Below the pieces are notes generated by a model, which worked only from the letters and a program-made list of their open reading frames with translations, had not been told where the DNA came from and did no database searches. Positions 1 to 13,585 of a DNA stretch of 64,000 bases are shown one piece after another. The position numbers and the translations under genes were made by a program. The stretch's first letter is position 1. The number at the start of each line of letters is the position of its first letter. The stretch is from the NCBI GenBank assembly GCA_022841915.1, contig JALHQN010000010.1, positions 1 to 64,000 of the forward strand, in the 5' to 3' direction. This DNA is from Burkholderiales bacterium. GTDB lineage: Bacteria; Pseudomonadota; Gammaproteobacteria; Burkholderiales; WYBJ01.

Positions 1-3000
1 GCCGATGCGGCGCCGAGCCCGACGCAGATGGTGCAGGTGGTCAACCCGGTGGGCTTGGCGAAGTTCGAACAAGGCCAGCAGGTGCGTATCGATTGGCACA
101 GTGCGGGGCTGACGCTGTTGGACCCGGTGGTGCTGCTCAATGCTGGGGGCTCGCTGGTGGGCGAGGGGCTGGCGGGGTGGAGCTTCGATCAATACCGCTC
201 GGGGGGCAGCGCGAGCAGCACCTCGACGCTGACCGATCGCACGGGGGTGGTGAACGCGGCGCCGGGGTCGGTGTACCAGAGCTGGGCGCAGACGAGCGGG
301 ACGAACGGTGCGTCGATGCGCTGGGATCTGCCGGTGGAGGACGGGACGTACACGCTGCGGCTGCACTTCATCGAGCCGTTCTACGGGGTGAACACGCGCA
401 GGTTCGATGTGTTGGTGCAGGGGGTGGAGGTCGAGAACGAGCTGGACGTTCGTGCGGTGAGCGGGGCGCTGCACAAGGCGCTGGTGCGCGAGTACACGGT
501 GAGCGTGAGCGGCGGGTCTGGGATCGATCTGGAGCTGATCAACCGGTCGAACTTCGGGGCGATCGTGTCGGGGATCGAGGTGCTGCGGGCCAATGCGGGC
601 GGGGTTGCGGCGCCGACGGTGGATCTGGAGGTGTCGACGGACGCTGGGGCGACGTGGCGTGCGATTGCGGCGGGTCTGCCGATGGATCGTTTCGGCAACG
701 GGACTTATCTGTGGACGGCGGATGCGCAGACGGTGGGCAACGATGCGTTGATCCGGGCGGTGGCGCGGGCGGGTGCGGTGACGGTGAGCGACGCCTCGGA
801 GCGCTTCCTGCTGGCGAACGAGGGCACGGCGTACTACGTGAACGATGGGTCGCTGGCGGGCAACGAGTACACCTCGGCGGCGGGAGACGATCGCAACTCG
901 GGCAAGAGCGCGTCGGCGCCGATGGCGAATCTGGCGGCGCTGATCCGGGCCTACGACCTGGATGCTGGGGACGTGGTGTACGTCGACACGGGGGTGTATG
1001 CGCTGGCGACGAACGTGGTGCTGGGGGTGCAGGATTCCGGGGTGAGGATCGTGGGTGCGCAGCAGCTCGATCATGCGAGCGTGCTGACGCGGGGCAACAC
1101 GAACGCGGGGGCGTACGCGATCCAGTTCGCGGGCGCAGACGACGTGGTGCTCGAACACTTGTCGGTGACGGGGGCGCAGTACGGCATCCATGCCGCCAGC
1201 GGTGCCGATTCCGATCGCATCACCCTCGATAACGTCGAGGTCTACGGCAATCAGGGGCGCGGCGTCAGCATCGAGAGCTCGAACGACGAGTGGCTGATTG
1301 CCGCCAGCCGGTTCAACAACAACGTGAGCTACGGGCTCTACATGAGCGACAGCCGGCGCAGCCGGGTCGAGGGCAGCGAGGCTTACAGTCAGAGCCGTGG
1401 CATCGATGTCTCCGCCTCAGGCAGCGCCGCCGACCTGACTGTGCTCGAGGGCAATCTCGTGCACGACAACACCGGGGTCGGTATTTCGATCCGCAGCAAC
1501 GTGCTGGCCATCGGCAACGAGGTCTATCGCCAGCCGACCGGCATCGAGGTGTCCTCTGGTGCCCGCGCCGAGGAGAACTTCGTCTACCGCAACAACATCG
1601 GTATCTCGGCGGCCTACGGCGCGGCGGCGGCCACGGGCAACTGGGTCTATTCGAACACGAGCGTCGGCATCCAGACCTTCTCGAGCACGGTGACCGGCAA
1701 TCACGTGTTCAGCAACCCCGTCGGCGTCTACGACACCGGCTACAGCCGCTTGTACAACAACGTCATCTATGCGAACCGCGATATCGGTGCGCGCATCACG
1801 TCGACCCATAGCGTGGGCGACGGCTTGTTCAACAATACTATCTACCAGCCCGTCGGCGATTCCATCCGGTTCGAGTCGGCAACCAACGTGAGCGTCGTGA
1901 ACAACATCGTGCAGGTCGGGGCCGGCTATGCACTGAATGTCGATGCCGGCACGCTGACCACGCTGGCGTCCGACTGGAACCTGTTCCATGCGATCACCAG
2001 CGGCGGCAATGTCGCGCTGTCGGGCGGCGCCAATCGCGCAACGCTGGCGGCGTGGCAGGCGGTGGCGAGCGACGACCTCAACTCCCGCAGCGGCGAGCCG
2101 CGCTTCCTCGATATCGATGGCGCCGACAACGTGCTGGGCGAGCAGGGTGTCACGACCGGCAACGGCTTCGACGACAACTTCGGCCTAGACGCATTCTCGC
2201 CGGCGATCGATGCCGCCAACGCCTTCGTGGCGCCGCGAACCGACATCGAAGGGCGCGCTCGCCACGACGATCCGGCAACGGCGAACACCGGCTACGGGTT
2301 GGATCTGATGGTGGCGAGCGACACGGGCGCATCGTCGTTCACCTCGACGGGCACGGCGCAGAACCTGCGGTCGGGCAACAACGCCGCTCAGATCACGCTG
2401 GGCTTCAACTTCGGTTTCTACGGCCAGACGTACTCGAGCGTCTGGGTCAACACCAACGGCTATCTGCACTTCGGCACCAGCGGGCAATTCAACGGCGGGG
2501 ACACCAACAGTGTCGACGTGTTGAAGAACAACGTGCGGATCGCGCCGTTGTGGGACAACCTCAACACCGGCGCCGTGGCCGGCAACGATGTCTACGTCGA
2601 CAAGACGGTCGCCAACCAGATCACCATCCGCTGGGCGGCCAAACGCCAGACCGACGCGGGGGCTGCGACGACCGACGACGTCAATGTGTCGGTCACGCTG
2701 TTCGCCAACGGCAGCTTCCGTTTCGATTACGGCCCGGGGAACGAGAATCTCACGCCGACCGTCGGCGTCAGCGCGGGCAACGGCGAGACGTTCGTCCTTG
2801 CGGCCTACGACGGTCAGACGAGCCTGAACGGCGTCAACTCGCTGCTGTGGCAGCCGACGCCGGGCCTGGTCTACTACGACATCGGCGCCTACGAGTTCCA
2901 GGGCGATTCCGGCGACCTTGCGCCGCCTCAGGTGCTGAGCGTCAGCAGGCTGCCGGAAGAGGCCGGCACGACCGCTGCCGCATTCGGCAGCATTCAGGTG

Positions 3001-6000
3001 ACCTTCAGCGAATCACTGGATGGCATCTCGGCGCGCAGTCCCGCGAACTTCGATCTGCGCGAAGCCGGCGCCGATGGCGTTTTCGACACAGTCGATGACG
3101 TCCTCATTGCAGTGACCCCCTTCTACACCTATCCGGAAACCAACCTGACGCTCTCGTTCGGCAGCGTTCTGGCCGAAGGCGATTACCGGTTGAGTCTGTC
3201 GGGTACCAAGGCGATCTACGATACCGCCGGCAATCCGCTCGACGGCAACGGGGACGGTGTCGGTGGCGACGATTACGTGCGGCATTTCACCATCGATCGC
3301 ACCGGCAACATCGCGCCGGTCGCGCAGAACCAGTCGGTCAACGTGGCCGAGAACGGCAGCATCGTGCTGACGCTGGTCGGCAATGACGCGAACGGCGATG
3401 CGCTCAGCTATGTCGTGGTGTCGGCTCCCGCTCACGGCACCCTGTCGCCGCTCGATCCGATCACCCAGCAGGTGACCTACACGCCGAATGCCGGTTACAA
3501 CGGTCCGGACAGCTTTCTGTTCCAGGTGGATGATGGCAACACGGGTGTCAGCGTCGGCACGATCGGGCTCATCGTTCAGCCGGTCAACGAGGCGCCCAGC
3601 GGTGCAGACCAGTCCGTCAGTTTGTTCGAGGACGGCAACCGACTGATCGTGCTCGATGGGGTCGATGCCGAGACGAGTCGTGCCGATCTGAGCTTCAGCC
3701 TGGTGCAAGCCCCGCAGCACGGCTCCTTGATGCAAGGCGCATCGGGTGCCTGGACCTACACACCGTTCGCGAATTACTTTGGCGCGGACAGCTTCACCTA
3801 TACGGTGACCGATCGCGGCGATCCGGACGGCAGCTTGGGCAATGCGCTGACGTCCGCTGTATCGACCGTGAGCATTACCGTCACGCCCGTGAACGACGCA
3901 CCGACGATTGCGGCGATTGCGGATCAGGTGGTGACCGAGGGCAGTCCGCTGCTGGTCAGCCTGATCGGTGCGGACATCGAGGGCGACGCGCTCGTCTACT
4001 CGCTGATCAGCGGTCCGTCGGGTGCGCTGGTCGATCAGGCCAGCGGCCTCTTCGCTTGGACGCCGGCCGATGGTCCGGCGACAGCGAGCGTGACCGTGCG
4101 CGTCGCCGAGGCGGCCAATCCGCTCAATCATGCTCAGGCCAGCTTCGACATCACCGTGCTGAACGTCGCGCCGACGTTGTCGATGACCGGGCCGGCAAGC
4201 GTGCTGCGCAACGACACCTTCACGCTAGCGCTCGGTCGCAGCGATCCCGGCGCGGACACGCTCTCGAGTTGGACGATCAACTGGGGGGACGGCACGAGCG
4301 TCGATGTTGCCGGCACCGAGACGAGCGTCGATCACGTCTACGCGAGTACCGGCAATTTCCAGATCACCGCGACCGCAACCGACGAAGACGGCACCTATGC
4401 CGTCGCTGCGACCAGTGTGCTCGTATCGTTGCCGAACATCGCGCCCGTCGCCGCCGATCCGAGCATCCTCGTGCTCGAGGACGGTACGGCGATCATCACG
4501 CTGACCGCCACGGATGCGAACAGCGATCCGCTTGCCTTCGAGGTCTCGACGCAGCCCTTGCATGGCACGTTGTCCGCGCTGAATCCGGTGACGCGGCAAG
4601 TCACCTACACGCCGCAGGCGAACTACCACGGGCCCGACAGCTTCACCTTCCGCGTTACCGACTCGGGCGGGTTGTCCGACAACGGTCTGGTGACGATCAG
4701 CGTCTTGCCGGTAAACGATGTTCCTGTCATCGCGGTGATTGCCGACCGGAGTGTGAATGAAGGCGATAAAGTCACCTTCAGCGTATCGGCGAGCGATGTC
4801 GACGGCGATGCTCTGACCTACTCGCTGACACAGGCGCCGGCCGGAGCCGTCATCGATGCGCAGACGGGCGCGTTCAGCTGGGTGGCCGCTGACGGGCCGG
4901 CTAGCGTCGCAGTGACGGTTCGTGCAACCGACAGCGGCAGCCCGGCGCTGTATGCCGAAACGACGCTGCAGATCGACGTGGCGAACGTCGTGCCCACGAT
5001 CCTGGTGAGCGGTGATCCGACCGCGATCACAGGGCAGGGCTACACGGTGAGCTTCTCCGCAACCGACCCTGGCGACGACACGATCGTGCAATGGCGGATC
5101 GATGCGAGCACGGGAGAGTCGCTCACGCTCAGCGGCGACGCGACGCAGGCGACGCTCGATTTCGCCACTGCGGGGCTGCGCACGATCACCGTCACGGCGG
5201 TGGACGAGGACGGCAGCCACGCGGCTACGCCGCTGGCGGTCGAGGTGGTGACGAATCGGCTGCAGGTGGTGTCGTTGACGCCGACTTCGACGGGCTTTGC
5301 GGCGCGGTTCAACGAGGCATTCGATGCCGGGGTCATCAACCTGTATGCGGGAGAGCCGACGAACCTGGGTCCGGCGGATGTGTTGATGACGGGGGTGGCG
5401 AGCGGAGCGGTGCGCGGGTCGCTGGTGTTCGATGCCGACTACCTCGGCTTCACGTTCATCAAGACGGGCGGGGTGCTGGCGGCGGACCAGTACACGGTGA
5501 CGTTGCGCAGCGGGGCGCAGGGATTCAACTCGGTGACGCTGGGGGCGCTCGACGGGGACGCCGACGGGGTGGCCGGGGGCGATCACGTGGCGGACATCGA
5601 GGTGACGGCCTCGGGCGCGCCGGTGTTGTCGATTCCGGACTTCGCGCGCGGGAACCTGCAGCCCATCGACGTGCCAGCGTCGGGCAGCGGGATTCCGATC
5701 CGGCTCTCCGAGGGCGCGGGCATCGAATCGATCAGTTTCGTGCTGCGCTACCGTTCGGATGGGCAGGGGCCGCTGGTGGTGACCGGGGTGGAGTTGGCGC
5801 CGGGCCTGCCTGCGGGGACGCAGCTGCAGTTCGATCTGAGCACGCCCGGGGCGATCCCGATCACGGTAAGCGCGCCTGCGGGCCAGACGCTGGGCTCGGG
5901 AGCACGCGCGCTGGTTGTGCTGCGCGCGAGCGTGAACGGGGATGCGGTGTACGGCGACAAGCAGGTGCTGGATCTGTCGGACATCACGGTCAACGGGAGC

Positions 6001-7149
6001 GCGGGCGGGGCGGTGGACGACGACGGCGTGCAAGTGGTGGCGTTGTTCGGCGACGGGAGCGGGAACCGGGCGTACTCGACGCTGGATGTGCAGCGGCTGC
6101 AGCGGGTGAGCATCGGCTACGACACCGGGTTCGGGGCGTTCCCGAATGCGGATCCGATCATCCTCGGGGACATCAACGGTAGCGGTGGCTTCAGCGCGAT
6201 CGACGTGACGCGGCTGCTGCAGGAGGTGAACTTCGTCGCCGGGGTGGCGCTGACGGACCGTCCGGAGATTCCGGCGATTCCGGCGGGGGTGTTGCCGCTG
6301 GCGCTGATGGGTCCGGATCCGACGGTGGACCTGCCGCGCGACGTGAGCGCGAAGGCAGGGGAGACGTTCAAGGTGCCGGTGCGTCTGGACAAGACGGAAC
6401 TGCTCGACTCGGCGCAGTTGCGGCTGAACTGGGACGGGGAGCTGCTGGAGCTGCTGGAGGTGGGCCGCGGGAGCGTGACGGGAGACTTCCAGTGGTACCT
6501 GACTCGGCGCGGGGAAGGCGAGCTGTACGTGGACATGAGTCGGTTGACGGCGCTGGGGGCGGGAAGCGGGAGCTTGCTGGAGCTGACGTTCCGGGTGGCG
6601 CCCGATGCGCAGCCCGGGGTGGTGGATCTGGACCTGTCGTGGGTGAGCCTGAACGAAGGGCGGCTCACGCTGACGCCGCTGCCGGTGCCGGGGCTCGATG
6701 GGTCGGACGGGCAGGTGCGGATCGTGGGTGCGCCGCCGCAGCCACAGCCGGAACCACAGCCACAGCTGGAGCCGCAGCCGGAACCACAGCCACAGCCGGA
6801 ACCGCGCCCGGGGCTATTGAGCGTGCTGGGCGGGGCACTGAAGCGGGTGTTGACGCGGGCCGATGCGTCGCTGGAGACGCCGCCGCCGAGTTCGCCGGTA
6901 TTGGCGGCGCCAGCGGGATTGGCGCCCGATGCGGTGCGCGCGCTGCCACGAGTGGAAGTGAGTGGTCAGACAGGGCCGACCGGGTCGACGAGCTACGATC
7001 CGCAGCAGCGCGCCTGGGTGAAGGGTTTCGTCGCGACCCCCGTCGCGAAGACGCCCAATGTCAACGCGGCGCTGAAAGTGACCGTGCCTGCGAGCAAGGC
7101 GCCAATCGCTGTGGCTGTCAGCAAGGATCTGCAAGCGCCGCAGCAATGA
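1..7149 (+). CDS. Giant modular surface/secreted protein, 5'-truncated by the window
   Basis: The frame is open from base 1, so the N-terminus lies upstream; about 2380 residues are visible. Modules in order by base: an Ig-like module with a malectin-like domain inside it (about 30-830), a parallel beta-helix (about 830-2090), a nidogen-like beta module (about 2280-2910), a bacterial Ig-like module (about 2920-3300), tandem cadherin/Big_9, putative-Ig and PKD-like repeats (about 3310-5255; acidic motifs such as DANGDAL and WGDGTS), another Ig-like module (to about 5620), a two-repeat dockerin-like region (about 6040-6240, key residues GDINGSGGFSAIDV), a cohesin-like domain (about 6300-6725), a Pro-Gln-Glu linker and a low-complexity C-tail with no sortase, PEP-CTERM or membrane anchor. 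Such modules are typical of calcium-stabilised adhesins or carbohydrate-binding surface proteins. The three downstream genes look like its export or processing machinery (inference). Codon use changes near bases 1180 and 5255, suggesting mosaic origin. Confidence 0.9.
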   Translation, partial: ADAAPSPTQMVQVVNPVGLAKFEQGQQVRIDWHSAGLTLLDPVVLLNAGGSLVGEGLAGWSFDQYRSGGSASSTSTLTDRTGVVNAAPGSVYQSWAQTSGTNGASMRWDLPVEDGTYTLRLHFIEPFYGVNTRRFDVLVQGVEVENELDVRAVSGALHKALVREYTVSVSGGSGIDLELINRSNFGAIVSGIEVLRANAGGVAAPTVDLEVSTDAGATWRAIAAGLPMDRFGNGTYLWTADAQTVGNDALIRAVARAGAVTVSDASERFLLANEGTAYYVNDGSLAGNEYTSAAGDDRNSGKSASAPMANLAALIRAYDLDAGDVVYVDTGVYALATNVVLGVQDSGVRIVGAQQLDHASVLTRGNTNAGAYAIQFAGADDVVLEHLSVTGAQYGIHAASGADSDRITLDNVEVYGNQGRGVSIESSNDEWLIAASRFNNNVSYGLYMSDSRRSRVEGSEAYSQSRGIDVSASGSAADLTVLEGNLVHDNTGVGISIRSNVLAIGNEVYRQPTGIEVSSGARAEENFVYRNNIGISAAYGAAAATGNWVYSNTSVGIQTFSSTVTGNHVFSNPVGVYDTGYSRLYNNVIYANRDIGARITSTHSVGDGLFNNTIYQPVGDSIRFESATNVSVVNNIVQVGAGYALNVDAGTLTTLASDWNLFHAITSGGNVALSGGANRATLAAWQAVASDDLNSRSGEPRFLDIDGADNVLGEQGVTTGNGFDDNFGLDAFSPAIDAANAFVAPRTDIEGRARHDDPATANTGYGLDLMVASDTGASSFTSTGTAQNLRSGNNAAQITLGFNFGFYGQTYSSVWVNTNGYLHFGTSGQFNGGDTNSVDVLKNNVRIAPLWDNLNTGAVAGNDVYVDKTVANQITIRWAAKRQTDAGAATTDDVNVSVTLFANGSFRFDYGPGNENLTPTVGVSAGNGETFVLAAYDGQTSLNGVNSLLWQPTPGLVYYDIGAYEFQGDSGDLAPPQVLSVSRLPEEAGTTAAAFGSIQVTFSESLDGISARSPANFDLREAGADGVFDTVDDVLIAVTPFYTYPETNLTLSFGSVLAEGDYRLSLSGTKAIYDTAGNPLDGNGDGVGGDDYVRHFTIDRTGNIAPVAQNQSVNVAENGSIVLTLVGNDANGDALSYVVVSAPAHGTLSPLDPITQQVTYTPNAGYNGPDSFLFQVDDGNTGVSVGTIGLIVQPVNEAPSGADQSVSLFEDGNRLIVLDGVDAETSRADLSFSLVQAPQHGSLMQGASGAWTYTPFANYFGADSFTYTVTDRGDPDGSLGNALTSAVSTVSITVTPVNDAPTIAAIADQVVTEGSPLLVSLIGADIEGDALVYSLISGPSGALVDQASGLFAWTPADGPATASVTVRVAEAANPLNHAQASFDITVLNVAPTLSMTGPASVLRNDTFTLALGRSDPGADTLSSWTINWGDGTSVDVAGTETSVDHVYASTGNFQITATATDEDGTYAVAATSVLVSLPNIAPVAADPSILVLEDGTAIITLTATDANSDPLAFEVSTQPLHGTLSALNPVTRQVTYTPQANYHGPDSFTFRVTDSGGLSDNGLVTISVLPVNDVPVIAVIADRSVNEGDKVTFSVSASDVDGDALTYSLTQAPAGAVIDAQTGAFSWVAADGPASVAVTVRATDSGSPALYAETTLQIDVANVVPTILVSGDPTAITGQGYTVSFSATDPGDDTIVQWRIDASTGESLTLSGDATQATLDFATAGLRTITVTAVDEDGSHAATPLAVEVVTNRLQVVSLTPTSTGFAARFNEAFDAGVINLYAGEPTNLGPADVLMTGVASGAVRGSLVFDADYLGFTFIKTGGVLAADQYTVTLRSGAQGFNSVTLGALDGDADGVAGGDHVADIEVTASGAPVLSIPDFARGNLQPIDVPASGSGIPIRLSEGAGIESISFVLRYRSDGQGPLVVTGVELAPGLPAGTQLQFDLSTPGAIPITVSAPAGQTLGSGARALVVLRASVNGDAVYGDKQVLDLSDITVNGSAGGAVDDDGVQVVALFGDGSGNRAYSTLDVQRLQRVSIGYDTGFGAFPNADPIILGDINGSGGFSAIDVTRLLQEVNFVAGVALTDRPEIPAIPAGVLPLALMGPDPTVDLPRDVSAKAGETFKVPVRLDKTELLDSAQLRLNWDGELLELLEVGRGSVTGDFQWYLTRRGEGELYVDMSRLTALGAGSGSLLELTFRVAPDAQPGVVDLDLSWVSLNEGRLTLTPLPVPGLDGSDGQVRIVGAPPQPQPEPQPQLEPQPEPQPQPEPRPGLLSVLGGALKRVLTRADASLETPPPSSPVLAAPAGLAPDAVRALPRVEVSGQTGPTGSTSYDPQQRAWVKGFVATPVAKTPNVNAALKVTVPASKAPIAVAVSKDLQAPQQ
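6733..6810 (+). repeat. Pro-Gln-Glu-Pro linker repeat inside the giant protein
   Basis: The codons spell alternating PQ and PE dipeptides (PPQPQPEPQPQLEPQPEPQ and so on) between the cohesin-like domain and the C-terminal tail. The DNA is an imperfect tandem of CCACAGCCGGAA-type units. This is probably a stiff extended spacer; unit number could vary by slippage without breaking the frame. Confidence 0.85.
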
Positions 7150-7295: not shown

Positions 7296-9194
7296 ATGTC
7301 ATCGACCACCGAAATCGAGCGTTTTCTGGAGGTAGCCGGCGCCGCAGGTCAGGGTCAGGGTCAGGGGCAGCCAGGCGATGCGGAGACAGCCACCTGGAGC
7401 GCTTTCGTCTCGGCAGCCTCGCTCGATCAGTTCTACGGGAGCTGGCTAGCCATTCTTTGCGCCCAGGTGGACGAGGTGCTCGGCGCGTTGCTGCTCATTC
7501 GCTCCGATGCCGAAAACACCTACGTGCCCGGGGCCATCTGGCCGGATGTCAGCCGGGACATGACGTATCTCGCGCCCACCGCGCAACGCGCGCTGACCGA
7601 GCGGCAGGGCGTGGTGGACTCGGCCGTGGCCGACGCGAGCGCGGAAGCCAGCGGTGCCCGGGTCGCCTATCCGGTGGAGGTCGCAGGCAATCTGCACGGC
7701 GCGGTCGTGCTGGATCTGGCACCTCGTTCGCAACGGCAGCTGCAGCACGCGCTGCGGCTTCTCCACTGGGGCACGGCCTGGCTGGTCGATTCGTTCCGGC
7801 AGCGCGAGTTCGAACGTCGCCAAGCAGACATCGATCGCCTCGCCCTGGCGACCGAACTGGTCACGACCGCTGTCCAGGAGCAGCGCTTCAAGTCCGCGGC
7901 GCTCGCGGTCGCCAACGACATCGCCAGGCGGCTCGACTGCGAGCGCGTCAGCATCGGCATGGACCGCAACGGCGAGTCGCGCGTGCTTGCCATATCGCAT
8001 ACAGCGATGTTCGATCCGAAGTCGAGTTTGTCGCGTCGCCTGGGCGAAGCGATGGACGAGGCGCTCGATCTGGGGGCGACTTTCGTTCATCCCGCCCAGG
8101 GCGAGGACGCTCTGACCGGCGCGTCCCACGCGGCCCTGGCGCAGGAAGCAGGCGACATCGCCATCGTCTCGACGCCGCTCAGCGCCCGTGGCGAGGACTG
8201 GGGCGTGCTCATGCTGGAGCGAACCCGGGGCCAGGTCTTCGACGCGCCGAGCATCGAACTGGTGCGCACGCTGGGGTTGCTGCTGGGGCCGGTGCTCGCA
8301 CTCAAGCGCGACAACGAGCGTGGGTTGCCCAAGCGGGCCTGGGATGGCCTGGTGACGGGCGTGCGTGCTTTGTTCGGACCGCGTCACCCGGGATGGAAGC
8401 TGATTGCGACCGTCGTTCTCATCGCGCTGGTGTTTCTGAGCGTCGCCGACGGCCAGCACAGGGTGGCGGCGACGACGGTCGTCGAAGGCGAGGTGCAGCG
8501 TGCGGCTGTGGCGCCGTTCGAAGGCTATATCGCCGAAAGTCCGGTGCGCGCGGGCGACGTGGTCAAGGCCGGGGTGCTGCTCGCTCGCCTGGACGACAAG
8601 GAGCTGCTCCTCGAACGTACCCGCTGGGAGGCCGAGCGCGAGCAGCATTTGCGAAAGTATCGGCAGGCGTTGGCCGTGCGCGATCGTTCGAGCATGAATG
8701 TCCTGGGCGCGCAGGTCAATCAGGCCGAGGCCCAGCTGCAACTCATCAACGAGAGGGTCACCCGCTCGCGCATCACGGCGCCTTTCGACGGTGTGGTCGT
8801 GAGCGGCGACTTGAGCCAGTTGCTCGGCACCCCGGTCGAGCAGGGCAAGGTCCTGTTCGAGATCGCGCCGCTCGACGCGTATCGCGTGATACTCAAGGTC
8901 GACGAGCGCGATATCGCGCATCTGGCTGTCGGCCAGAAGGGCGAGCTGGCCTTGTCGGGCATACCGGGCGCCCGGCTGCCGTTCTCGGTTGCGCGCATCA
9001 CGCCGGTGTCCACGGCGGAAGAGGGCCGCAACTACTTCCGTGTCGAAGCCAACATGGAAGCGGCGAACGAGCGCCTGCGGCCCGGGATGGAGGGCGTCGG
9101 CAAGGTGTCGATCGGTGAACGGCGTCTGATGTGGATCTGGACGCACAAGCTCGTCGACTGGATGCGGCTCGCTTTCTGGACCTGGCTGCCGTGA
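7296..9194 (+). CDS. GAF-domain sensor fused to HlyD-type membrane-fusion adaptor
   Basis: 632 residues. Residues about 35-160 and 165-345 look like two GAF-type folds (the second clearer, with the segments about ALATELVTTAVQE and SRGEDWG-like strands). A single transmembrane segment lies at about 369-387, followed by a HlyD/RND-adaptor region: a lipoyl-like half with VAPFEGYI, a coiled-coil hairpin at about 430-485, the returning half with ITAPFDGVVV, and a beta-barrel to the end. Predicted topology is cytoplasmic sensor, inner-membrane anchor, periplasmic adaptor. Adaptors of this class normally bridge an inner-membrane engine to an outer-membrane channel. It follows the giant gene by 146 bp and precedes the M50 gene by 72 bp. 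There is no clear Shine-Dalgarno at the chosen ATG. A run of Gly-Gln repeats lies at residues about 17-24. The specific job is unknown. Confidence 0.85.
   Translation: MSSTTEIERFLEVAGAAGQGQGQGQPGDAETATWSAFVSAASLDQFYGSWLAILCAQVDEVLGALLLIRSDAENTYVPGAIWPDVSRDMTYLAPTAQRALTERQGVVDSAVADASAEASGARVAYPVEVAGNLHGAVVLDLAPRSQRQLQHALRLLHWGTAWLVDSFRQREFERRQADIDRLALATELVTTAVQEQRFKSAALAVANDIARRLDCERVSIGMDRNGESRVLAISHTAMFDPKSSLSRRLGEAMDEALDLGATFVHPAQGEDALTGASHAALAQEAGDIAIVSTPLSARGEDWGVLMLERTRGQVFDAPSIELVRTLGLLLGPVLALKRDNERGLPKRAWDGLVTGVRALFGPRHPGWKLIATVVLIALVFLSVADGQHRVAATTVVEGEVQRAAVAPFEGYIAESPVRAGDVVKAGVLLARLDDKELLLERTRWEAEREQHLRKYRQALAVRDRSSMNVLGAQVNQAEAQLQLINERVTRSRITAPFDGVVVSGDLSQLLGTPVEQGKVLFEIAPLDAYRVILKVDERDIAHLAVGQKGELALSGIPGARLPFSVARITPVSTAEEGRNYFRVEANMEAANERLRPGMEGVGKVSIGERRLMWIWTHKLVDWMRLAFWTWLP
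7339..7370 (+). repeat. Hexanucleotide GQ-coding microsatellite
   Basis: A short tandem of GGTCAG/GGGTCA-type hexamers codes four Gly-Gln dipeptides near the N-terminus of the GAF-HlyD protein. Because the unit is six bases, gain or loss of copies would change the dipeptide number without a frameshift. Confidence 0.6.
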
Positions 9195-9266: not shown

Positions 9267-11411
9267 ATGGCCGGCCCGCTTCTGAGCGCTTCCTGGTACC
9301 GAGTCAGCGAACTCAAGCCGCGACTGCGCACGCACGCGCGCATGCGCCGCCACCGCTATCGCGGTCAGGTGTGGTTCGTATTGCAGGATCCCGCCTCGGG
9401 GCGCGCGCATCGCTTCACGCCGTCTGCGCGCCTGATCATGAACGGGATGGATGGCGAGCGCACCGTGGGCGCGCTCTGGGAGATGGCCAACCGGCGCCTC
9501 GGGGATGTCGCGCCGACGCAAGACGAACTGATTCATCTGCTCGGTCAGCTGCACGCCTCGGATCTGCTGCAATGCGACGTGTCGCCCGACGTGGCGGAAT
9601 TGTTCGATCGCGCCCAGCGCCAGGATCGGCAGCGCGTGAAGCGGGCGATCGGCAATCCCATGGCGATCAAGGTGCCGCTGATCGATCCGGACCGGCTGCT
9701 CGAACGCATCCTGCCTTTCGTGCGGCCGCTGTGGGGATGGCGCGGGATGCTGCTGTGGCTCGCCATCGTCGTGCCCGCGCTGCTCCTCGTGCCGCCGAAC
9801 TGGGGTGACCTGACGCACGGCGTCGCCGATCGGGTATTCGCGATCGACAACCTGCTGATGATCTGGCTCCTGTTCCCGCTGCTCAAGGCGTTTCACGAGC
9901 TGGGGCACGGGATTGCGGCCAAGGCCGGCGGTGGTGAAGTGCACGACATGGGCATCATGATGCTCGTGCTCATGCCCGTGCCTTATGTCGATGCCACCAG
10001 CTCGGCCATGTTTCGCTCCAAGTACGAGCGCGCCGTGGTCGGTGCGGCCGGCATGATGGTCGAGCTGATGCTCGCGGCGATTGCCTTCTATGTCTGGATG
10101 CTGGCCGAGCCGGGCGCGCTGCGCGCCGTTGCGTTCAACGTCATGCTGATCGCAGGCGTTTCGACCGTGCTCTTCAACGGCAATCCGCTGCTTCGCTACG
10201 ATGCGTATTACATACTTTCCGATCTGGTCGAGATTCCTAATCTCGCCAGCCGTTCCATGCGCTACCTCGGGTTTCTGTTCGAGCGCTACGCCTTCGGCGC
10301 ACGCGACATCGAGGAGCCCGACGGCACGCCGGGCGAGAAGGCATGGTTCGTCTTCTACGGCATCGGCTCGTTCTTGTATCGCATCGTCGTCGTGGTGGCG
10401 ATCGTGCTCTTCATTGCGGGTGAGTTCTTCATCGTCGGCGTGGTGCTCGCGATCTGGGCCGTGGTCGCGATGGCGGTCGTGCCCGTGAGCAAGACGGTAC
10501 ACCACATGGTGACGAGCCCGCGGCTCGCCCGTCATCGTCGTCGGGTCGCGTGGGTGAGCCTGGGCGCACTCGCGCTTCTGGTGGGTTTCATCACGCTCGT
10601 TCCGATGCCGTTCCGATCCCAGTCCGAGGGTGTCGTCTGGTTGCCCGAACAGCAGATCGTGCGCGCTCGGGCGAACGGGTTTCTCACGCGCTATCTGGTC
10701 GATCCCGGGGCGTCCGTGCAATCGGGCGACCCGCTGGTGGAAACCATCGATCCGGCGCTCGTCGCGGAGATCGGCATCGCGCAGGCGCGCGTCGCGGAGC
10801 TGGATGCGCAATATGCGCAGCATTTCGTCACCGATCGGGTTCAGGCGCAGATCACCCAACAGCAGCTCGATCGCGAAGTGGCCATTCTCGAGCGCGCAAC
10901 CGATCGTGGCGCCGATTTGATCGTCAAGGCCCAGTCCTCGGGGGTGTTCACCGTTCCGCATCATGCGGATCTGCCCGGACGATTCTTTCGCAAGGGCGAA
11001 CTGATCGGGTACGTGATCGAGCCGGCGCAGCCGCGTGCGCGAGTGATCGTCCAGCAGGCCGAGGTCGACGTCGTGCGACTGGCCACCAACGAGGTCGAGA
11101 TTCGCACCAGCGACCGGCTCGATCGCGTGGTCAATGCGAAGATCGTGCGGCAGGTGCCCGGGGGGGCCGACGAACTGCCGAGCAAGGCACTGTCTCTCGA
11201 CGGCGGCGGTACGGTGCCGATCGATCCGCGCGATCCCAAGGGCACGAAGACGATGGGGCGCGTGTTCCAGCTGGAACTGGAGCTCGACGCGCAGCCGGCA
11301 GCGCTCTACGGCGGGCGCGTTCATGTGCGCTTCGATCATGTGCGCGAGCCGCTGGCCCGGCAGTGGTACCGCGGGTTGCGGCGATTGTTCTTGACGCGGT
11401 TCAATGTTTAG
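9267..11411 (+). CDS. PqqD-like / M50 site-2 protease / HlyD adaptor fusion membrane protein
   Basis: 714 residues. Residues about 25-115 resemble a PqqD-type winged-helix peptide-binding module. A polytopic core (about 160-450) carries the M50 zinc motif HELGH at 210-214 and the second M50 motif NPLLRYD at 306-312, with Asp312 as the probable third zinc ligand; both catalytic elements are intact. After the last membrane helix (about 425-445) a HlyD-type adaptor region runs to the C-terminus, with a coiled coil near 500-550. M50 enzymes cleave within or near the membrane; PqqD-like modules present precursor peptides to modifying enzymes. The combination with an adaptor suggests recognition and processing of an exported substrate at the membrane, probably the adjacent giant protein (inference). 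GAGGCG precedes the ATG. It lies between the GAF-HlyD and SecA-like genes on the same strand. Confidence 0.88.
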   Translation: MAGPLLSASWYRVSELKPRLRTHARMRRHRYRGQVWFVLQDPASGRAHRFTPSARLIMNGMDGERTVGALWEMANRRLGDVAPTQDELIHLLGQLHASDLLQCDVSPDVAELFDRAQRQDRQRVKRAIGNPMAIKVPLIDPDRLLERILPFVRPLWGWRGMLLWLAIVVPALLLVPPNWGDLTHGVADRVFAIDNLLMIWLLFPLLKAFHELGHGIAAKAGGGEVHDMGIMMLVLMPVPYVDATSSAMFRSKYERAVVGAAGMMVELMLAAIAFYVWMLAEPGALRAVAFNVMLIAGVSTVLFNGNPLLRYDAYYILSDLVEIPNLASRSMRYLGFLFERYAFGARDIEEPDGTPGEKAWFVFYGIGSFLYRIVVVVAIVLFIAGEFFIVGVVLAIWAVVAMAVVPVSKTVHHMVTSPRLARHRRRVAWVSLGALALLVGFITLVPMPFRSQSEGVVWLPEQQIVRARANGFLTRYLVDPGASVQSGDPLVETIDPALVAEIGIAQARVAELDAQYAQHFVTDRVQAQITQQQLDREVAILERATDRGADLIVKAQSSGVFTVPHHADLPGRFFRKGELIGYVIEPAQPRARVIVQQAEVDVVRLATNEVEIRTSDRLDRVVNAKIVRQVPGGADELPSKALSLDGGGTVPIDPRDPKGTKTMGRVFQLELELDAQPAALYGGRVHVRFDHVREPLARQWYRGLRRLFLTRFNV

Positions 11412-11566: not shown

Positions 11567-13585
11567 ATGCGTGCTAGTGCGGCCGTCCTGAGGGCAGACA
11601 CTGAATTGTCGGCCGCGCGCGCCTATCCCGAGCGCGTCGAGCACGAGCCGAAATGGCACGACCACGTGGCCGATTGGCTCACCTGCCGCGTCTTTCGCCC
11701 CGTGGCGCACAGGCTGCGCGATCCCTCGAAGCAGCTCGCGCGCATCGTTCCGCATGCGGCGATGCACGAGCACGCGTTGCGGGATGCCACGGATGCGCGG
11801 TTGCGCGAGCTGGGCCTCGAATTGAAGCGCCGCTTGCGCCGGCAAGGGTTCCGGCCTGAGATCGTCGGGCAAACCTTTGCACTGCTGCGCGAAGTTGCGG
11901 GCAGAACCCTCGGGCAGCGGCACTTCGATGTGCAGCTCATGGGCGGATGGGGGCTGCTGCAGGGGCGCCTGGTGGAAATGGAAACCGGCGAAGGCAAGAC
12001 GCTGACCGCGACGCTGCCGGCTGCCACGGCGGCCTTGGCCGGCGTGCCTGTGCACGTGATCACCGTGAACGACTATCTGGCTTCCCGCGATGCGCAGGCG
12101 ATGGCGCCGGTGTACGAGTTCCTGGGCTTGAGCGTTGGTGTCGTCACGCAGGACATGAAGCCCGATGAGCGCAGGGCGGCTTATGCCTGCGACATCGCCT
12201 ATTGCACCAACAAGGATCTGGCGTTCGACTATTTGCGAGATCGAGTCGCCCTGGGCACCTCGGGCAGTGCCGCGCACATCGCCCTCGAACGCTTGCGCGG
12301 CGGGAGCCGCGGGGGCGCGAATCGAGTCGTATTGCGAGGACTGCATTTCGGCATCGTCGACGAGGTCGACAGCGTATTCATCGACGAGGCGCGCACGCCG
12401 CTTATTCTCTCGGCCTCCAGGGGCGACGACAGCGAGGCGCAGACGTGCGGCGAGGCGCTGCAGATTGCACGCACGCTGGTGGCCGGTGAGCACTATGCGG
12501 TCGACCGGCGCGAGCGCATCGTGGATCTCAAGGACGCCGGCAAGGCCTGGTTGTCGGACTGGGCCGAGGCGCAGCACGGCGTATGGACTTCGAAGCGCAC
12601 GCGCGAGGACCTGGTGCGCCAGGCGCTGTCCGCGATCCACCTCTTCACGCTCGATCAGCACTACGTAGTGGCCGAGGGCAAGGTGCAGATCGTCGACGAA
12701 TTCACCGGCCGCATCATGGCCGATCGTTCCTGGGAACGCGGCCTGCACCAGATGATCGAGGCCAAGGAAGGGGTGGAACTGACTGCGCGGCGCGAAACCC
12801 TTGCGCGCATCACGTATCAACGCCTTTTCCGACGCTATCTGCGGTTGTCCGGCATGACCGGCACCGCCATGGAGGTGGCGCCGGAGATCTGGTCGATTTT
12901 TCGCCTCGATGCGGTCAAGGTGCCGCTGAATCGTCCGAGTCGGCGCAGCTTCGCGCGCGGGCGCGTGTTTCTCACGGCGGCGGAGAAATGGGAAGCCGTT
13001 GCGGCCGAGGCCGAGCGATGCGCGCGTGATCAAGGGCGGCCGGTCTTGATCGGCACGCGTTCGGTCCAGGCCTCGGAGCAACTGTCGGCAGTGCTCTCGC
13101 GTCGCGGACTCGAGCACGCGCTGCTCAACGCCAAACAGGATCGCGAGGAAGCTGATGTCGTCGCCTCCGCGGGATCGTCTGGTCGCATCACGGTGGCGAC
13201 GAACATGGCCGGGCGCGGCACCGACATCCGACTGGCCAGCGAGGTGGCGGCGCGCGGGGGGCTGCACGTGATCCTGACCGAGTGCCACGAATCGGCCCGG
13301 ATCGACCGGCAGCTGTACGGTCGCTGCGCACGCCAAGGCGATCCGGGCAGTTGCGCAATGCTGGTTTCGCTGGAGGATGAATTGTTTCGCACCTATGCCC
13401 CTGGGTTCACACGGCTGATGCGCAATTCAGGCGCAGCCGTACGCTCGTCCGCGTGGTTTCTGCGGCTGCTGCAAGCGAGTGCACAAGGGGCCGCCGAGCG
13501 GCGCAATGCCCGGGTGCGCAACGACAATCTCAAGCTGGATCGGCGGCTGGAGAAGACCTTGGGGTTCGCTGGGCGCAGCGAGTAG
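11567..13585 (+). CDS. Shortened accessory SecA-like translocase ATPase
   Basis: 672 residues against about 850-900 for housekeeping SecA. The motor is intact: Walker A METGEGKT (138-145, Lys144), Walker B region [14 protein letters not shown] (Asp265 onward), a preprotein cross-linking domain with [15 protein letters not shown], and NBD2 with NMAGRGTD starting at Asn546 and CARQGDPGS. The chain ends soon after the first scaffold helix ([20 protein letters not shown]), so the helical wing, the rest of the scaffold and the zinc-containing SecB-binding tail are missing. It is therefore an accessory SecA, presumably not the essential copy. It is the last gene of the giant-protein cluster and could power export through SecYEG or a dedicated channel (inference). 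The start is uncertain, since no good ribosome-binding site is visible before this ATG. Confidence 0.88.

Follow-up and report, generated by a model that had tools for sequence, protein, structure and literature searches.

Why should a giant protein of a Burkholderiales bacterium end in modules of the kind known from cellulose-digesting machines? The question is raised by the first 7,149 nucleotides of contig JALHQN010000010.1 (assembly GCA_022841915.1), of which we analysed positions 1 to 64,000 on the forward strand (the window). A single frame (1-7149, +) is open throughout and covers 2382 residues of the protein, the N-terminus of which is missing because the frame is already open at the first base of the contig, where the window also starts. 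Pfam recognizes malectin, a right-handed beta helix, and Big_9/cadherin-like and PKD repeats ahead of a C-terminal block, a make-up suggesting that this is probably a large exported adhesin-like protein, with surface exposure as a prediction. The block comprises, in this order and on the same strand, a cohesin-fold domain A (5620-6045), a dockerin-like domain (6046-6291), and a cohesin domain B (6295-6732). Tentatively, and with rather less than even confidence, we read its sequence as that of a C-terminal docking module through which the exported giant would dock in trans onto another molecule.

Domains of the C-terminal block

The initial annotation placed a cohesin-like module at 6300-6725, and this is borne out by both sequence and predicted fold. 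Domain B scores 35.3 bits against PF00963, for which the cut-off is 24.1, and the last part of A1, a family profile built from 18 blocks, matches the solved cohesins 2vn5 (8.5e-8) and 2xdh (9.2e-8). An AlphaFold2 model of the block, calculated from the window protein and eight relatives (predicted template modelling score, pTM, 0.43), contains two beta sandwiches with block means of 62-94 in the predicted local distance difference test (pLDDT). Comparison of domain B with solved structures using VIA-align gave a Z of 16.4, the root-mean-square deviation being 2.0 over 130 residues for 6kgf_A and 1.9 over 124 residues for 2xdh; the latter, a non-cellulosomal cohesin of Archaeoglobus fulgidus, is also the best Foldseek match of the model. 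The other sandwich (model residues 1-141/142) is domain A, which aligns with 1anu and 2jh2_C at Z 13.5. The first part of A1 yields weak matches alone (5lxv, 0.15; 10uw, 0.68), and the window copy of domain A falls below the PF00963 cut-off; 12 homologous A copies lie above it. According to the model, both A and B have the cohesin beta-sandwich fold. The layout first described for this region, a dockerin followed by a cohesin, is thus correct as far as it goes but overlooked domain A, so that the full order is cohesin-dockerin-cohesin.

Two dockerin-type repeats had also been proposed, and both are present in the one open frame with their calcium ligands intact. Loop 1 of dockerin type (DGSGNRAYSTLD, 6052-6087) has Asp, Ser, Asn, and Asp at ligand positions 1, 3, 5, and 12, and loop 2 (DINGSGGFSAID, 6169-6204) has Asp, Asn, Ser, and Asp; a conserved PEIPxxP segment (6262-6282) lies inside the same domain. 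Our alignment had 32 rows, of which L033 and L041 were dropped as slices without a dockerin. Among the 30 copies counted, position 12 is Asp in every one for both loops, and position 1 is Asp in 30/30 for loop 1 and in 29/30 for loop 2, the remaining copy having Asn. At position 18, Arg is found in 28 of the 30 copies in repeat 1 and Gln in 16 of the 30 in repeat 2; helix 1 is therefore kept more strictly than helix 2, as would be expected if one face of the dockerin binds. The A1 profile also matches solved dockerins, namely 2ccl_B (2.6e-4) through the second repeat and 4dh2_B (0.0039) through both. We use the name "dockerin-like" in view of the Pfam score of the window copy, which lies below the cut-off, and of these profile matches. 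Taken together, the profile matches, the ligand conservation, and the fold match lead us to reject chance similarity as an explanation of the block.

Ligand conservation also bears on the suggestion that the block is structural or vestigial, its cohesin-fold sandwiches and a degenerate dockerin acting as terminal spacers of a stalk. Such a role would suit the many beta-sandwich repeats that precede the block, the dockerin score under the Pfam cut-off, and the existence of cohesin folds without known dockerin partners. Nevertheless, retention of positions 1 and 12 in 29-30 of 30 copies, in both loops and across strongly diverged sequences, argues otherwise, and we regard this explanation as quite improbable.

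The spacing of the three domains is uneven. In the model, domain A stops two residues ahead of loop 1 (residue 141/142 versus 145), which leaves the dockerin little room to fold back on the side of A, and the stretch from the second dockerin helix to cohesin B measures some 27 residues. X modules support the adjoining dockerin in X-dockerins and, by analogy, cohesin A probably supports the dockerin here.

Recurrence of the block among giant proteins

Of 300 Burkholderiales genomes surveyed, 14 carry the block, which lies at the ends of giant proteins. At most six candidates per genome were scored in this survey, so that the module counts are lower bounds: there are at least 45 modules (46 match rows, one module being split in two), of which 22 include cohesin B, 20 consist of cohesin A and the dockerin without B, and three are cohesin A alone. 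Where the stop could be placed for modules without B, 15 of 18 have fewer than 400 bases between the end of the match and the stop. This leaves no room for cohesin B, and the dockerin has therefore been kept in these proteins without a cohesin B in cis.

These copies are relevant to homotypic self-association as suggested in the initial annotation, in which the dockerin would bind B (or A) of another copy to give head-to-tail fibres, or would bind B in cis by way of the linker and so lock the tail. Both partners lie within one chain, B is a clear cohesin, and the 27-residue spacing would suffice for contact. Against this, no cohesin B is seen in 20 of the at least 45 modules (with the room before the stop checked), cohesin A meets the dockerin almost without a linker, the dockerin is not placed by AlphaFold2, and small proteins encoded next to some giants, described below, provide an alternative partner. 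In known scaffoldins, moreover, a dockerin usually does not match the specificity of the cohesins in its own chain. We consider self-association unlikely.

The giant frames reach 14,056 residues, and seven of the eight listed frames below 3,000 residues begin at a contig end. Two paralogues in the host genome, on contigs C9 (8661 residues) and C8 (4129 residues), start with the LEPR-XLL motif (26.6 and 26.2 bits, respectively, with NF012209, cut-off 17), and two further LEPR-XLL frames, on C7 and C22, are open to the contig ends, with their C-termini beyond. The N-terminus of the window protein itself lies beyond its contig (C10), and LEPR-XLL is known here from the sister giants. As a separate observation, tandem giant genes of 25-42 kb are present at G029:C2, G223:C26, G283:C17, and G118:C88, with a frame of 14,056 residues followed by one of 10,519 residues as an example.

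A scan of contigs with profile A2 gave eight loci from assemblies of Betaproteobacteria, Burkholderiales, Burkholderiaceae, and Hydrogenophilales. Seven of them repeat places of the order survey, L048 alone being new, and the contig scan with a single protein as query found no relative. In a sample of 398 genomes from the phylum, with no more than five candidates scored in each, profile A1 at E up to 1e-10 matched the host genome only. The A2 scan of viral contigs found no relative of the block, and a viral origin was set aside on this basis.

Small exported neighbours as candidate partners

Some giant genes have neighbours that encode small proteins with weak similarity to cohesins, and these, judged by their sequences, are possible dockerin partners in trans. 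A Cohesin search (E up to 0.1) covering 20 genomes gave, besides the giants, five frames of 780-940 residues and ten small frames of fewer than 300 residues. Six of these ten lie less than 1.5 kb from the start or the end of a giant and on the giant's strand (G000:C9, G000:C22, G100:C18, G223:C27, G253:C29, and G283:C17, with G000 being the host genome). This adjacency was seen before it was counted, and the corresponding binomial value of 5e-14 rests on a rough guess of p = 0.0025. The PEP-CTERM protein on host contig C9 (L015:10511-11047) has 179 residues and a Cohesin score of 19.9 bits, below the cut-off, and its start lies about 40 bp past the stop of the 8661-residue giant. Another small exported PEP-CTERM protein of the host (C22, L156:1518-2129; Cohesin 15.8 bits) lies just before an 8440-residue LEPR-XLL frame. 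Relatives of the C9 protein (48-52% identical) follow the matching giants in G100, G253, G223, and G055, and small exported proteins, mostly of the PEP-CTERM type and in several cases weakly cohesin-like, stand right beside giants at L082, L094, L096, L097, L101, L110, L123, L124, L143, and L151. By eye, the small neighbours open with a signal-peptide-like stretch. Of ten small proteins scanned (L108, L110, L124, and L127 being left out), eight pass the PEP-CTERM cut-off (PF07589 or TIGR02595), with the L151 and L082 proteins below it, and six have Cohesin matches of 15.8 to 23.6 bits. In addition, the host genome has an exosortase (234.8 bits).

The same search returned larger frames. One of 940 residues, at G000:C4:113150-113290 (L008, L019), is secretin-like (GspD type, by eye) and matches Cohesin weakly (16.1 bits) in its last part; frames of 782-882 residues in four other genomes also match Cohesin.

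We infer that docking in trans would proceed as follows. The giant would be exported, perhaps by the neighbouring HlyD/M50/SecA-like genes considered below, and its dockerin would fold with calcium outside the cell. The dockerin could then plug into a cohesin carried by a second molecule, which might be a sister giant or an exosortase-sorted cohesin-like protein of small size, and cohesin B could take another dockerin; cohesin A, nearly linker-free to the dockerin, would support it like an X module. The outcome would be a calcium-dependent network, or an anchorage, of giants at the cell surface.

A number of results count against this proposal. The window dockerin has 12.1 bits on PF00404 (cut-off 22.9) and hmmscan gave no report of it, with the paralogue on C9 (23.8 bits summed) being the sole copy above the cut-off in the host genome. 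Structure prediction, which gave cohesin folds for A and B, did not yield a dockerin fold with confidence (pLDDT about 30 within the block and 41 for the domain alone), and AlphaFold2 placed only a helix after each loop when given the dockerin by itself. As for the partners, none of the ten small proteins passes the Pfam Cohesin cut-off of 24.1, the best reaching 23.6, and four of the ten, three being relatives of the C9 protein, have no Cohesin match. The C9 family aligns weakly with cohesin B of profile A1 (P 0.0067, probability 5.7), and comparison of this family and the small proteins with solved structures gave no usable match. A PEP-CTERM frame is seen in 8 of 38 downstream flanks of giants, and is thus absent beside most; five of these eight proteins were scanned, and one (L101) has a cohesin match. 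The L108 protein is not cohesin-looking. These flanks were scanned with home-made motifs, for which the L094 protein was caught by the looser one only and the L082 protein by neither; in control stretches the motifs picked up, apart from the C9 protein itself, a single false positive, and another occurred in an upstream flank (L135). For the window giant, there is no PEP-CTERM frame downstream and none was flagged in the whole window, the next gene being one for a GAF-HlyD protein.

Neighbouring genes and known systems

The genes that follow the giant in the window, all on the forward strand, may supply its export. The first (7296-9194) encodes a GAF-HlyD adaptor-like protein on the basis of domain matches, the second (9267-11411) a PqqD-M50-HlyD-like membrane protein (M50 25.1 bits, slightly short of the 27.2 cut-off), and a third (11567-13585), again from domain matches, a SecA-like ATPase of 672 residues, which is shorter than SecA models. 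In L048 and L051, the giant is followed by relatives of both the GAF-HlyD and the PqqD-M50-HlyD protein (the L051 contig ends there). Relatives of the GAF-HlyD protein are also present in L021, L023, L037, and L041, and the SecA-like protein has a relative in L048 as well. Among the 300 genomes surveyed in the order, 31 carry LEPR-XLL, 31 carry the M50-HlyD protein at E up to 1e-80, and 27 carry both (Fisher 4e-30, kinship ignored). LEPR hits are weak (2e-4 to 5e-4) in the four genomes that have LEPR-XLL without M50, and equally weak in G010, which has both; the assemblies of the four genomes that have M50 without LEPR-XLL consist of 310 to 580 contigs. Of 46 M50 matches, 18 share their contig with a LEPR-XLL site no more than 60 kb away, and all 14 block-bearing genomes belong to both sets. 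The cluster is thus a candidate dedicated exporter of LEPR-XLL giants, although the link is one of association only, which adds to the points against the docking proposal. Among the paper titles searched, none names a system of SecA, HlyD, M50, and a giant adhesin.

Downstream of cohesin B, the window giant continues through a Pro/Gln/Glu-rich linker (6733-6810) to a short C-terminal tail motif, WVKGFVA ... NAALKVTVP (7012-7089), which was noted by eye and is like the ends of several other giants. This recurring motif could, from its sequence, be an export or sorting signal. The pattern W..[DG]F[VL]A followed by N..LK[VI]..P was found by eye in many giants.

The position of the block near the C-terminus, before this tail and, in the window, before the putative exporter cluster, would also suit an RTX-like folding switch, in which the calcium loops stay unfolded in the low-calcium cytoplasm and fold outside, aiding one-way export or stabilizing the end of the chain. 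The ligands are, moreover, among the most conserved positions. A switch of this kind, however, does not explain why the domain is always paired with a cohesin fold or why residues of helix 1 are conserved, and it does not seem likely to us as the function of the block.

How does docking in trans compare with what is known? Cellulosomal scaffoldins with an X-dockerin combine cohesins and a dockerin in one chain, with a beta sandwich right before the dockerin; here the domain preceding the dockerin is itself a cohesin fold, and Pfam shows no carbohydrate-binding module (CBM) family in the 2382 residues seen, from which the N-terminus is missing. A PF00404 search of the host genome saw no dockerin-bearing enzyme, being a weak search that missed the window's dockerin as well, and gave three other weak matches (12.5-14.0 bits). 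A cellulosome is unlikely given that the part seen has no CBM and that this insensitive search found no enzyme whose dockerin exceeds the cut-off.

Further parallels come from outside cellulosomes. In anaerobic methanotrophic (ANME) archaea, a single protein may combine one dockerin with as many as five cohesins (PMC9012536), and these archaea and Archaeoglobus fulgidus resemble the present case in having cohesins and dockerins without known cellulose degradation (PMC9012536, PMC5244752) and, for ANME, in joining several cohesins to a dockerin within one chain. The present proteins differ from the archaeal ones in belonging to Betaproteobacteria, in carrying the order cohesin-dockerin-(cohesin) at the ends of giants with LEPR-XLL sisters, and in the adjoining HlyD/M50/SecA-like cluster. 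In freshwater planctomycetes (Nemodlikiaceae), a dockerin-HYR-cohesin "adaptor" has been assigned to a proposed "planctosome" (PMC6461901), which likewise unites a dockerin and a cohesin in one chain, adds a cohesin-bearing anchor, and is hypothetical too; it differs in its peptidases and lamin-tail anchor, the candidate anchors here being PEP-CTERM proteins. With these precedents and the scaffoldins, a cohesin and a dockerin in one chain is not novel by itself, and the statement in the initial annotation that this is unusual outside cellulosomes was too strong. As for giants, a Vibrio LEPR-XLL protein of about 8000 residues has RTX and serralysin domains (PMC10868602). LEPR-XLL giants (NF012209) are alike in very large size and, for the sister giants, in the N-terminal motif; the Vibrio protein has RTX, whereas the C-terminus here is cohesin-dockerin(-cohesin). 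An Omnitrophota giant frame with nine dockerins and a suggested adhesin role (PMC10066038) similarly has dockerins in a giant frame, but in another phylum, and the available text does not mention cohesin. In the literature, judged mostly by titles, we did not meet the combination of a C-terminal cohesin-dockerin(-cohesin) block, giants, LEPR-XLL, and an exporter cluster; PEP-CTERM, dockerin, and cohesin were not found together, and neither were dockerin, adhesin, giant, and Betaproteobacteria.

The broadest reading would be a betaproteobacterial surface-assembly system unrelated to cellulose, in which LEPR-XLL giants as long as 14,000 residues pass through a dedicated PqqD-M50-HlyD / GAF-HlyD / SecA-like export route, dock by a C-terminal dockerin onto exosortase-sorted cohesin proteins whose genes adjoin those of some giants, and are linked to one another by further cohesins; we put this forward with considerable doubt. 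The role of cohesins and dockerins outside cellulosomes has been described as an open question (PMC5244752). A recurrent cohesin-dockerin(-cohesin) block, with a candidate anchored partner encoded by the next gene in some cases, makes a non-cellulosomal role testable in small soluble fragments. The little-studied LEPR-XLL giants thereby gain a candidate exporter and a possible way of being anchored, and these bacteria may snap giant proteins together, or onto the cell, using parts known from cellulose-digesting machines.

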